Shown here: positions 44,667 through 49,138 of the stretch, in pieces
Layout: each line of letters opens with the position of its first letter
How positions within the stretch are numbered: the stretch's first letter is position 1
The notes under the pieces: generated by a model
What the model was told of the DNA's origin: nothing
Database searches by the model: none
The model's input: only the letters and a program-made list of their open reading frames with translations
Translations under genes and position numbers: made by a program
NCBI RefSeq assembly: GCF_039545095.1
Contig: NZ_BAABRS010000003.1
Span: forward strand, 248,001 to 312,000
Source of the DNA: Fodinibius salicampi
Lineage (GTDB): Bacteria > Bacteroidota > Rhodothermia > Balneolales > Balneolaceae
Length of the DNA stretch: 64,000 bases
Direction: 5' to 3'

Positions 44667-46004
44667 CTACTCTTCATACACAGTATCTTCACCAAAGGAG
44701 CCCCACTTTCTATTTAGCATATATAAAATGATTCCTACAATCATGATTCCCAGTCCCACGAGCGATTCCAGGGGGCGCTCCAGAATTACATAAACCATAA
44801 TAAAGGTATTCACCAGCAGAAATACAGCGGGAGTCACCGGATACCCCCATGTTTTGTAGGGGCGATCCATTTCCGGCCGCCGCCACCGCAGCACATATAC
44901 ACCAGCCACCGTCAGACTGCTCATTCCAATCAGTAAAAAGGTGGCATATACCATCACCTGCTCAAAAGTAGAAGTGTACAGAAAAAGCAAGGTAACAATT
45001 GCCTGAAAAATCAGGGCGTTAACCGGAATTTGCTTTTCATTTCTCTTGCCCAGCATCTTAAAAACGCCATAATCTTCTCCTATAACCTGCGCAATACGTC
45101 CCCCTATGAACACCATGGCGCTGATAGTAGAAATCATAAGTACCGAAATAAGAATAGATAGCACATCGGCTGCCGCCGGGCCCAGCATCTGTTCAGCTGC
45201 CAGAAAACCGACTTCCACCTTGCCCGCCAGCTCAGGGATGGGAACCAATAAAAGAAATACGTAATTGAGCAGCGCATACAGAACCGTAACCATCACCGTG
45301 GCTATAAATAGTGCTTTGGGCAAATTCTTTTGCGGCTTTTGGATCTCTCCTACAATATAAACGGCTGCATTCCATCCCGTATAGGCGTAAGAAACATATA
45401 CCAGGGCTACAGCAAAAAAAGGGCTTACTAATATCCCCCAGTCGGAACTCTTAGGCACAAGGCTGATAGGCTGATGATTGGATGCCATAAAGCCTAAAAC
45501 GATGAAAAGTACCACAACGCCAACTTTTACCGCGGTCGATATATTTTGCAGGTAGTTCCCCCATCGAATGCTGGTGCTGTGGACCAGCGTTATCAGTACA
45601 ACCGAAATGGCTCCAACATGGGTCACCGGGACAGCAGGAAAAACGGCATGGGTATATTCTCCCAGTGCAATAGCGGCAATGGCAGTGGGCGCAGCAAATC
45701 CGGCGGTAAGGGATATCCATCCGGAAAGAAATCCCAGCGATGGATGATATATTTCCGAAAGCAGGTGGTATTCGCCCCCGGACCGCGGCAGGGCTGCTCC
45801 TAACTCTCCATAAGAAAGCGCTCCACACAGGGCAACAACCCCTCCTACAACCCAAAGCATAACCAAGGCAAAAGCAGATTGTATATCCACAACCTGGTAA
45901 CCGAGACTGGTAAAGACCCCGGTTCCTATCATGTTTGCTACAGCAATAGATATTGCCGTAATCAATCCCACTGTTTTCTTTGTACCCGAAGACGATTCAG
46001 CCAT
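44667..46004 (-). CDS. APC-family amino-acid permease
   Basis: A 445-residue inner-membrane transporter with about 12 hydrophobic segments. The family's first helix (ISIAVANMIGTGVFTSLGYQ), YGELGAALPRSGGEYHLLSE and YAYTGWNAAVYIVGEIQKPQ are clear. Unlike the permease at 6009 it has no USP tail. It is the next gene after the TonB receptor on the same strand (153 bases) with no strong terminator between, so it may fall under the same cysteine-leader attenuator. Substrate unknown; a cysteine-related substrate is only a hypothesis from that context. Confidence 0.9.
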   Translation of the reverse strand: MAESSSGTKKTVGLITAISIAVANMIGTGVFTSLGYQVVDIQSAFALVMLWVVGGVVALCGALSYGELGAALPRSGGEYHLLSEIYHPSLGFLSGWISLTAGFAAPTAIAAIALGEYTHAVFPAVPVTHVGAISVVLITLVHSTSIRWGNYLQNISTAVKVGVVVLFIVLGFMASNHQPISLVPKSSDWGILVSPFFAVALVYVSYAYTGWNAAVYIVGEIQKPQKNLPKALFIATVMVTVLYALLNYVFLLLVPIPELAGKVEVGFLAAEQMLGPAAADVLSILISVLMISTISAMVFIGGRIAQVIGEDYGVFKMLGKRNEKQIPVNALIFQAIVTLLFLYTSTFEQVMVYATFLLIGMSSLTVAGVYVLRWRRPEMDRPYKTWGYPVTPAVFLLVNTFIMVYVILERPLESLVGLGIMIVGIILYMLNRKWGSFGEDTVYEE

Positions 46005-46157: not shown

Positions 46158-48902
46158 TTAATTAATATTCAGCGTTAATTTTGTAAAGTAGTATGCTCCA
46201 TTAAACCCATGCTGGGAGGGCGGATACTTAAACACATTGAAATAACTATTGGCATAAACATGTTCATCGGGATATATGTCAAATATATTATTACCGCCAA
46301 CCGTGAAATCCAATTCATCGGTCACTCCATAGGTCAGGCTCAGGTCGGTTACAAATTTTGCGCTGTACGTCTGTGCTTCTCCGAAAGCACCGCCGGTATT
46401 CAGACTTACTTCTCCGAACCTGACTCCCCGGACCATCGCAGATAGTGGACCGATATCATATTGCAGGGTGGCCGAAATCTTAGATTGGGGATCGCCTTCT
46501 TCGAGTCGCAGCCTATCCCACGACTGCAGATATAAATCAGCTTGTTCTTCAAGCTGTGGAGATGTTTCCACGGCTCCCTGCACCTTTACCTCATTGAAGT
46601 TGGCTCCCAGTGAGAAATTCAGCTGATGATCATTTGAAAAAGGATGATTGTAAGTGGCTACAATATCGACTCCGCGCGTTCGGGTATCAATAGCATTGGT
46701 GAAGAAGTTTGCCGCTGATACTCCGTAGTCTCGAAGCTCAGCTGCAATATCCGCTGGCAGTTCATTTACGTTAAATTCACTCGTCAGTATGATACGGTCT
46801 TCCACATCGATCTGGTAGAAATCTGTGGTCAAGCTCAGGTTTTTAAACGGACGAAGCGCAAACCCTGCACTGTAATTAATGGATGTTTCCTCTTTTAGAT
46901 CCGGAATACCCAACAGGTCGGCCGGACGGCTGTTATTATTGAAGGTACCTATCTGCACCAATCGGTTATTATCATTAAAATCGCTGGATACCTTATTGTA
47001 GTACACCTGGTGGAGCGATGGAGCGCGGAACCCTGTATTAATGGCGCCCCGGAGGGTTAAGTATTCTCCAAAGAGGTACCGTGCGGATAATTTTCCATTG
47101 AGGGTATTCCCAAAATCGCTGTACCGCTCAAAACGGGTCGCTCCCGCAACCAAAAAGTCTTGGGTCAGGTTTACTTCTACATCTGCAAAAGCGGCAATAT
47201 TAGTACGGGTAGCACTTATTTCATCTGAGGGTCGAAATCCCGGATAACCCTGTGATCCGCCAGTTCTACCTAATGTATCTGTCTGTCCTACTACAAGACC
47301 ATTACTTGCTACGCTATCCACAATTCCGTAATTACGATAGGAGGGCTCGTCACCTGCATTAATGCCATAATTATCAACCCTGAATTCAGAGCCCAGGGCT
47401 ACATTTATGCCCGATAGGGCCTGATCAAAGTATTTCGCAAAGGTAAGTCCGGTTACATTTTGACTGAACGAAAACCCGCCCACATCAAAAGCAGTCGGGG
47501 AGGATGCGCCGAGAGTGGCGTTCACGCTATTGGTCACCCGAAAGTCAAATGCATTGCTACCAAAACTATTGCTAAAATCGATTTCCCATCCCCGGAATTC
47601 TCCACGGATACCGGCCGTCAGGGATTTATCTGTAATGGAAGATTTAGTCAGCGGCTGAAATCCGTGCGGATATATTTCCGGAACATTCCCACCGTCTACG
47701 GGCAGGCGCCGAAAAGGGAAACCGGTTCCCTGCTTGTTGCTTAATCCACCAAAGAAATACACTTCTGTGCCCTGATTACCCACGGGCACTGCTCCATTCA
47801 CAAAAGTCGAAGCGATCTGCATGCCAGCGTCGCCAATATGAAACTTAAAGTCATCTCGTGTTTTTCCCCTTTCCTGGATTTCTGAATTATCTTCAGCTCG
47901 AACTTCTTCCGGGTTGTCGTCAAATGGGTAGGCAAAACCGGGTATATACACATGTAAATCGTGATCACCGGTTCGATTCGTAGGCTCCCGGTTGGTAAAA
48001 GAACCGGTCACATTCACATACCCCTCTTCTCCCAACTCAAAGCCATAGTTTGCATTTACCTTTGCCGTTTCACCATCTCCGGCTTTATAACCGCCGGCGG
48101 TGGCACTTGCCGTCAATAAGCCGGTACCTTCCTTCAAAATAATATTGATCACGCCAGCGATAGCATCAGAACCATATTGAGCAGCAGCTCCGTCTCGTAA
48201 TATCTCAATCCGGTCGATTGAAGCAGTAGGTATTACGGACATATCTGTTCCTACAGTCCCCCGCTTGCCACCAAGCAGGTTAATAACCGAGCTGGTATGA
48301 CGCCGCTTTCCGTTTATCAACACTAACAGCTGGTCAGGCCCCATTCCCCGAAGAGAAGCAGGCGCATTATGCTCGGATTCATCCGCGGCGGACTGTCGAT
48401 TTGATTGAAATGAAGGAGCAACATATGTCAACAATTGATTTACATCCACCTGTGGCGCCTGGATATCAAGATCTTCTACCGAAATCACATCTATAGGCAC
48501 CGCAGACTCCAGGTTGCTGCGACCACCGCTGCGGGTTCCGGTTACTACGACCTCGCTTCCTGAGATATATGAAGAAGTGAGGGACACATTCAGTGTTACA
48601 ACTTCACCGGCAGAAAGACCTGTTAGTGATTCCGTTGTGCTTTCAAAGCCTATATAGGAAAATTGCAGCTCTGCATCCCCCGCTGGAACTGTCAGCGAAT
48701 AATCTCCGTCTCGGTCGGTTACCGTACCACGAGAAGAATCAATAAGACGGATATTTACACCCGGTAAATGTTCTCCGGTTGCTTCATTGATAACTTTTCC
48801 TTCAACGGTAGCAGTCTGTTGGCCCCAACTTACCGCAGAGGTAAATAGAGGAAACACAGCAATTAAAAACAGATATTTAAAAACGTTATTCACGGTGTAC
48901 AT
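46158..48902 (-). CDS. TonB-dependent outer-membrane receptor
   Basis: A 914-residue receptor. Signal peptide 1-27 (ends SWGQ); a carboxypeptidase-D-like Ig domain at about 30-110 (VEGKVINEATGEHLPGVNIR, then GDYSLTVPAG); a plug at about 120-260 (SLRGMGPDQLLVLINGKRRH, IDRIEILRDGAAAQYGSDAI, AGVINIIL); then a 22-strand barrel to the C-terminus. No SusD partner follows, so it is not a SusCD pair. It resembles BtuB/CirA-type porins that import one bulky nutrient with TonB energy. It is preceded by the cysteine leader and terminator at 48977-49103; the start lies 75 bases after the terminator's U-run. Confidence 0.93.
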   Translation of the reverse strand: MYTVNNVFKYLFLIAVFPLFTSAVSWGQQTATVEGKVINEATGEHLPGVNIRLIDSSRGTVTDRDGDYSLTVPAGDAELQFSYIGFESTTESLTGLSAGEVVTLNVSLTSSYISGSEVVVTGTRSGGRSNLESAVPIDVISVEDLDIQAPQVDVNQLLTYVAPSFQSNRQSAADESEHNAPASLRGMGPDQLLVLINGKRRHTSSVINLLGGKRGTVGTDMSVIPTASIDRIEILRDGAAAQYGSDAIAGVINIILKEGTGLLTASATAGGYKAGDGETAKVNANYGFELGEEGYVNVTGSFTNREPTNRTGDHDLHVYIPGFAYPFDDNPEEVRAEDNSEIQERGKTRDDFKFHIGDAGMQIASTFVNGAVPVGNQGTEVYFFGGLSNKQGTGFPFRRLPVDGGNVPEIYPHGFQPLTKSSITDKSLTAGIRGEFRGWEIDFSNSFGSNAFDFRVTNSVNATLGASSPTAFDVGGFSFSQNVTGLTFAKYFDQALSGINVALGSEFRVDNYGINAGDEPSYRNYGIVDSVASNGLVVGQTDTLGRTGGSQGYPGFRPSDEISATRTNIAAFADVEVNLTQDFLVAGATRFERYSDFGNTLNGKLSARYLFGEYLTLRGAINTGFRAPSLHQVYYNKVSSDFNDNNRLVQIGTFNNNSRPADLLGIPDLKEETSINYSAGFALRPFKNLSLTTDFYQIDVEDRIILTSEFNVNELPADIAAELRDYGVSAANFFTNAIDTRTRGVDIVATYNHPFSNDHQLNFSLGANFNEVKVQGAVETSPQLEEQADLYLQSWDRLRLEEGDPQSKISATLQYDIGPLSAMVRGVRFGEVSLNTGGAFGEAQTYSAKFVTDLSLTYGVTDELDFTVGGNNIFDIYPDEHVYANSYFNVFKYPPSQHGFNGAYYFTKLTLNIN

Positions 48903-48976: not shown

Positions 48977-49009
48977 AAAAAAGCCGCTTACCAAGACTGA
49001 TAGCGGCTT
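48977..49009 (-). terminator. Attenuator terminator upstream of the TonB receptor
   Basis: On the minus strand AAGCCGCT (49009-49002) pairs with AGCGGCTT (48988-48981) around a 13-base loop, followed by a U-run (plus-strand A run 48977-48982). It stands between a short leader ORF and the receptor gene it precedes, a position for premature termination. Its 5' arm shares the bases CGCT with the antiterminator. Confidence 0.8.
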
Positions 49010-49041
49010 AGGGCGTTCCCTGATTTTCAAACGCTATCAAT
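49002..49041 (-). promoter_or_regulatory. Antiterminator segment of the cysteine attenuator
   Basis: AUUGAUAGCG (49041-49032), beginning with the last base of the leader stop codon, pairs with CGCUAUCAGU (49005-48996) over ten bases with one G-U. The latter overlaps the terminator's 5' arm and loop, so the two stems exclude each other. A third small stem GCGUU (49034-49030) / AACGC could sequester the antiterminator's left arm. Confidence 0.65.
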
Positions 49042-49103
49042 CAACATCGGCAGTAACAACAGCAACAATGACAAGAAATTACCTGAGATTGATGTAACAG
49101 CAT
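49041..49103 (-). CDS. Cysteine-rich leader peptide
   Basis: A 20-codon ORF, ATG at 49103, TGA at 49043-49041. It opens MLLHQSQVIS and ends CHCCCCYCRC, so seven of the last ten residues are Cys. The ribosome binding site AAAAGGA (49115-49109) stands six bases before the ATG, one of the best in the window. The same DNA read in another frame gives a Leu run but has no start codon with an SD. Placed just ahead of an antiterminator/terminator pair, it is the expected sensor for Cys-tRNA charging. A metal-binding micro-peptide is the alternative. Confidence 0.7.
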   Translation of the reverse strand: MLLHQSQVISCHCCCCYCRC

Positions 49104-49138
49104 ATATATCCTTTTGCGTTCAAAAATTAATTGCGACC

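Follow-up and report, generated by a model that had tools for sequence, protein, structure and literature searches.

A candidate cysteine-codon attenuator upstream of a TonB receptor–permease operon in Fodinibius salicampi

We analyzed a 64,000-nucleotide stretch of the Fodinibius salicampi genome (hereafter, the window), in which a gene for a TonB-dependent receptor follows a short open reading frame (ORF) that ends in a dense run of cysteine codons. The likely explanation, in our judgment, is a ribosome-mediated transcription attenuator that reads the supply of charged Cys-tRNA to regulate a receptor–permease operon, which most likely imports a source of cysteine or of another sulfur amino acid. 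The region carries the sequence elements of such a device, these elements have mutually exclusive predicted folds, and the receptor family has a sulfur and glutathione context. From these observations we infer that the leader is translated, that transcripts terminate in the cell, that termination responds to cysteine, and what kind of substrate is transported.

Results

Anatomy of the leader region

All of the elements lie on the minus strand, in the order in which they would be transcribed:

49109..49115, minus strand: Shine-Dalgarno-like AAAAGGA read from the sequence, with a 5-nt spacer to the leader ATG
49041..49103, minus strand: predicted leader ORF of 20 codons, MLLHQSQVISCHCCCCYCRC, with its ATG at 49103 and its stop codon at 49043-49041
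49088..49103, minus strand: protector strand (segment 1), predicted to pair with 49045-49031 if the leader is untranslated (minimum free energy of -17.7 kcal/mol for 49103-49031)
49044..49073, minus strand: Cys-codon run C-H-C-C-C-C-Y-C-R-C, the presumed sensor, from sequence reading and ribosome-position folding
49032..49041, minus strand: 5' arm of the antiterminator (segment 2), ATTGATAGCG, which begins on the final base of the leader's stop
48996..49005, minus strand: 3' arm of the antiterminator (segment 3), CGCTATCAGT, overlapping the 5' arm and loop of the terminator
48977..49009, minus strand: intrinsic terminator with arms AAGCCGCT (49009-49002) and AGCGGCTT (48988-48981) and six T at 48982-48977
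46158..48902, minus strand: TonB-dependent receptor of 914 amino acids, the presumed regulated gene, with carboxypeptidase-regulatory-like, plug and beta-barrel domains
44667..46004, minus strand: APC-family amino-acid permease, presumably the second gene of the operon

A preliminary description of this DNA had reported the Shine-Dalgarno sequence AAAAGGA, a 20-codon ORF ending in CHCCCCYCRC and a 10-bp antiterminator, and direct reading of the sequence confirmed all three; the antiterminator core pairs 49041-49032 with 49005-48996. The terminator that it had given as an 8-bp stem with a U-run is also present, with the arms as described, but its predicted stem is longer, with 8 + 4 bp on either side of a single bulge and a computed folding energy of -15.0 kcal/mol. 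This terminator is absent from a simple terminator scan, which admitted loops of 3-8 and no bulge. The protector pairing (49103-49088 with 49045-49031) is a third pairing that was overlooked in the first reading. The receptor ATG (48902) lies 74 nt beyond the six-T run.

Seven of the final 10 codons of the leader encode cysteine. To put this density in perspective, we counted ORFs of at most 80 codons with at least seven Cys within 10 codons; the real window contains one, and none occurred in 400 replicate dinucleotide shuffles of the whole window. A search of the window against Rfam gave no match above the gathering score, whether to SAM, T-box, cobalamin or other families.

Folding as a function of ribosome position

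In the predicted folding the three segments are mutually exclusive, with antiterminator and intrinsic terminator switched by the position of the ribosome. The probability of the terminator at equilibrium is 0.87 without a ribosome, and 0.86-0.90 across alternative transcript starts. When Cys codon 10, 12 or 13 occupies the A-site, it falls to 0.015 or less, and the antiterminator reaches 0.94-0.96. From codon 14 through the stop codon the terminator returns (0.82-0.90), in agreement with the earlier proposal that a ribosome at the stop codon permits termination. The companion proposal, that stalling at the Cys codons frees 49041-49032 for the antiterminator, is borne out for the first three Cys codons but not for the later ones, as stalling at Cys codons 14, 15, 17 and 19 still yields the terminator in the equilibrium model. 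The trend is robust to the assumed ribosome coverage (9-14 nt, within one codon, in a scan offset by one base) and to the transcript start.

Shuffled sequences rarely reproduced this behavior. When the 5' part was shuffled and the terminator kept, four of 1000 sequences switched and one did so as strongly as the real sequence; when only the spacer was shuffled, there were five switches per 1000 and none as strong. Shuffling only the loop left a switch in 160 of 1000 sequences, and because loop shuffles reach the switch this often (16%), the terminator loop adds little specificity. The model is an equilibrium one only, and the folding result therefore supports the mechanism but falls short of proving it.

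The proposed mechanism would have three states. Without translation of the leader, the protector would pair with segment 2, the terminator would form and the operon would be off; the computed protector pairing thus predicts termination without translation, as this class of attenuators requires. If cysteine were scarce, the ribosome would slow at the first Cys codons and leave segment 2 free to capture segment 3, so that the terminator would be blocked and the operon turned on. With ample Cys-tRNA, the ribosome would reach the stop codon and cover segment 2, and the terminator would form and again turn the operon off.

The presumed regulated operon and its orthologues

By sequence, the nearest solved relatives of the receptor are siderophore receptors, and the solved structures closest to the permease are the light chains LAT2, b(0,+)AT, Asc-1 and xCT. 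Receptor orthologues occur in two species of the same genus, F. roseus (87% identity) and F. salsisoli (77%), and both keep the receptor–permease pair. The Cys leader is absent upstream of both, so the expected conservation of the leader across related genomes fails at the two nearest orthologous loci. Because the leader was found in one genome only, the receptor locus provides no covariation evidence. This pattern may reflect a lineage-specific gain or loss, and it weakens the attenuator claim without excluding it.

At the aligned terminator site, F. salsisoli keeps a similar stem, CCGCT...AGCGG, whose U-run is weak, and lacks any leader ORF (locus L024, upstream of 3001). This stem is possibly a remnant or a precursor of the attenuator.

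Sulfur context of the receptor family

We sampled 394 genomes of the phylum and found relatives of the receptor (E 1e-140 or better) in 47. Four of 49 upstream regions of these homologues contain a SAM-I riboswitch above the Rfam gathering score; for scale, the 12 genomes of the genus carry one SAM-I riboswitch each. The matches are:

L013 4518-4618: SAM-I riboswitch before a receptor homologue
L109 867-981: SAM-I riboswitch before a receptor homologue
L112 4042-4146: SAM-I riboswitch before a receptor homologue
L115 1214-1319: SAM-I riboswitch before a receptor homologue

The same permease adjoins the receptor in eight homologous loci, and a gamma-glutamyltransferase gene adjoins a receptor homologue in seven (L151 8613-13690, and L011, L012, L018, L111, L121 and L127). 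One locus (L013/L151) combines a SAM-I riboswitch with a divergent gamma-glutamyltransferase gene. In a maximum-likelihood tree, the receptor of the window falls within a supported clade (96/94; 95/95 one node up) together with permease-linked receptors, including three under SAM-I control. The neighboring gamma-glutamyltransferase suggests, as far as gene context can, the use of glutathione or gamma-glutamyl peptides. Given the SAM-I, permease, gamma-glutamyltransferase and clade evidence, the receptor family is probably tied to sulfur amino acids, with glutathione, gamma-glutamyl or cyst(e)ine compounds as putative substrates.

Cysteine-rich leaders before cysM

A pattern search recovered a second leader of this type in the source genome, a poly-Cys ORF that ends in CACCCCCCS before its stop codon and precedes a cysM operon:

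L091, just upstream of 5484 (G000:C2:711614), minus strand: poly-Cys leader ORF of the cysM operon

This operon consists of cysM, a JAB-domain (Mec-like) gene, a small ThiS/CysO-like gene and a ThiF/rhodanese (MoeZ-like) gene. Among 129 genomes of the order, all 15 cysM orthologues (58-100% identity; L152-L166) carry a Cys-rich leader, whereas none of the eight paralogous cysK-like synthase loci checked has one. The leaders of the order start at TTG or ATG and contain 5-9 consecutive Cys (CCCYCCC in one case) that adjoin the stop codon or lie near it. In most of them a stem follows the stop codon and pairs despite variable sequence (GTTACCGG/CCGGTAAC, ATTACCGA/TCGGTAAT, AACCTG/CAGGTT); these Balneolales stems enclose a pyrimidine-rich loop and have no U-run.

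Seven further cysM orthologues come from more distant Bacteroidota. In five of them (L211-L215) an intrinsic terminator follows a Cys-rich leader; the other two (L210, L216) have neither element. The leader tail complements the 5' arm of the terminator in all five terminator-bearing loci (p of 0.001-0.12 against shuffled tails; Fisher-combined 6e-5). At equilibrium the terminator prevails at nearly all ribosome positions, so a switch at these distant cysM loci would need a kinetic antiterminator.

Leaders at the SusC locus

In the source genome, a SusC–SusD–M14-carboxypeptidase locus likewise follows a Cys/Met-rich leader, MIFNNCQLNMCNMACCMCMPMMCCMICTCWDDSGKRFPA, with a strong terminator. Four SusC orthologues (61-79% identity) show the same arrangement with diverged Met/Cys-rich peptides. 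The loci, beginning with that of the source genome, are:

L029 4239-4410 (G000:C3, about 509238-509409): Met/Cys-rich peptide and strong terminator, SusC locus
L031, L032, L033 and L042: Met/Cys-rich peptides and strong terminators, SusC loci

The tails of these leaders complement the terminator arm, and the complement differs in sequence in G044. The folding calculation was dominated by the terminator at nearly all ribosome positions, and any switch at these loci must therefore be kinetic; the test covers complementarity alone. The SusC-locus leaders may respond to sulfur amino acids or to a metal.

Discussion

The direction of the switch, the SAM-I, permease and gamma-glutamyltransferase context of the receptor homologues and the Cys-rich leaders of cysM together support the reading put forward in the preliminary description, that of a Cys-tRNA attenuator. 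Three other explanations were weighed. The Cys/His cluster of the nascent peptide could bind copper or zinc on the ribosome and alter stalling, with the receptor importing the metal or a metal chelate. CHCCCCYCRC could indeed bind metal, the Met/Cys-rich leaders before the SusC gene of the same genome also look metal-like, and a Cys-containing upstream ORF before a TonB receptor has a precedent in CruR (PMC9426467); however, the 145-residue DUF2946, CXXC, RAPP and Rho features of CruR are all missing here (PMC9426467). Moreover, the folding switch follows the position of the ribosome over the Cys codons, the receptor homologues are found under SAM-I riboswitches or next to gamma-glutamyltransferase or amino-acid permease genes, and cysM in relatives is preceded by poly-Cys leaders. 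We regard metal sensing as unlikely.

Still less probable, in our estimate, is a fortuitous or decaying Cys-rich ORF before a constitutive terminator, with the receptor expressed from another promoter or by simple read-through. Such an ORF would fit the missing leader in the 87% and 77% orthologues and the F. salsisoli locus, where a similar stem with a poor U-run stands without a leader ORF, but it sits poorly with the Cys density (0 in 400 shuffles), with a three-state switch that arises in 0-5 per 1000 shuffles and with the independent link of the receptor family to sulfur amino acids. Cys-tRNA could also be sensed with a mainly translational or Rho-dependent output, in which the stalled ribosome shields the RNA or exposes a ribosome site. 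Rho has been suggested for the Cys leaders of Actinobacteria, where no terminator is obvious (PMC1262725), and the cysM leaders of Balneolales show a pyrimidine-rich loop past the stop codon and no U-run. Against this, the intrinsic terminator of the receptor locus is well formed, has six U and is paired with an antiterminator switch in the computed folds, and we consider this output improbable to the same degree as the fortuitous ORF.

The Cys-tRNA attenuator proposed here is a mechanism of a known kind. The trp, his and leu attenuators of enterobacteria have a Shine-Dalgarno-led short ORF with regulatory codons near its end and are controlled by charged tRNA. The element in the window is like them in its Shine-Dalgarno-led ORF, its late codon run and its mutually exclusive protector, antiterminator and terminator segments. 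It differs in sensing Cys, in preceding a TonB receptor–permease operon rather than a biosynthetic one, and in belonging to Balneolales rather than Proteobacteria.

In Actinobacteria, Cys-rich leaders precede cys/cbs biosynthesis genes without an obvious terminator, and Rho has been proposed to act there (Seliverstov et al. 2005, PMC1262725). The polycysteine upstream ORFs of mycobacteria are leaderless, and cysteine-responsive attenuation has been reported for them (Canestrari et al. 2020, as described in PMC9094748 and PMC13236596). The present leader shares with the actinobacterial ones the Cys codons near the stop of a short upstream ORF before sulfur genes (here a putative sulfur role of the target), and is set apart by its Shine-Dalgarno sequence, its full intrinsic terminator and its uptake operon. 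CruR of Bordetella pertussis, encoded before bfrG, is an exported protein of 145 residues from the DUF2946 family; it carries CXXC and RAPP motifs, senses copper and acts through Rho (PMC9426467). Both systems have a Cys-containing upstream ORF and a TonB receptor gene downstream, and CruR controls transcription elongation (PMC9426467); the leader here, however, has 20 amino acids, no RAPP and a Cys spacing other than that of CruR. The SAM-I riboswitch (RF00162) precedes receptor homologues in four other genomes, but it is a metabolite-binding RNA without a leader peptide and none occurs in the window. Attenuators of the leader-peptide type have also been noted in Flavobacterium psychrophilum, of the same phylum in the GTDB sense; they precede amino-acid biosynthesis operons, and the portions of that report consulted name no Cys leader or TonB target (PMC9723704).

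A search of the literature available without subscription turned up no Cys leader ahead of a TonB receptor, no glutathione TonB receptor and no Bacteroidetes TonB receptor preceded by a SAM riboswitch. Nor did the literature searched describe a system that joins Cys sensing, a full intrinsic terminator switch and a TonB target in this phylum, which is weak evidence of novelty. To our knowledge, the regulation of TonB receptors is usually ascribed to metals, sigma/anti-sigma pairs or riboswitches. Placed before such a receptor, a Cys-codon attenuator would suggest that the receptor takes up a source of sulfur amino acids across the outer membrane, such as glutathione or peptides that contain cysteine, and would give it a testable substrate. 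It would also extend cysteine attenuation from Actinobacteria to Bacteroidota, with the full terminator and antiterminator that the actinobacterial leaders lack. We see an even chance that the phenomenon is broader, and that so far undescribed Cys-sensing attenuators govern, across Bacteroidota, both cysM-mec-cysO synthesis and import by TonB receptor–permease and SusCD–peptidase systems, replacing SAM riboswitches before one sulfur-related TonB family; members of this putative class would share a Cys run, an antiterminator strand within the leader tail or immediately behind it, and an intrinsic terminator.

Methods

For the switch model, equilibrium folding of the RNA free ahead of the ribosome was computed for each leader codon. 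The MAFFT alignment of the Balneolales cysM leaders misaligned the stem and was excluded from pair counts. The pattern C.CCCC.C was searched over 245 genomes, and clean intergenic matches alone were retained, as most matches lay antisense to coding genes, glutamine-rich or other. A census of four-Cys runs in the source genome yielded, apart from the leaders of the window and of cysM, two intergenic ORFs (L182, L188), which lack a sulfur context and were regarded as chance occurrences:

L182 1440-1545 (G000:C1:86796): five Cys codons in a row in an intergenic ORF a short way ahead of a photolyase-like gene, probably due to chance
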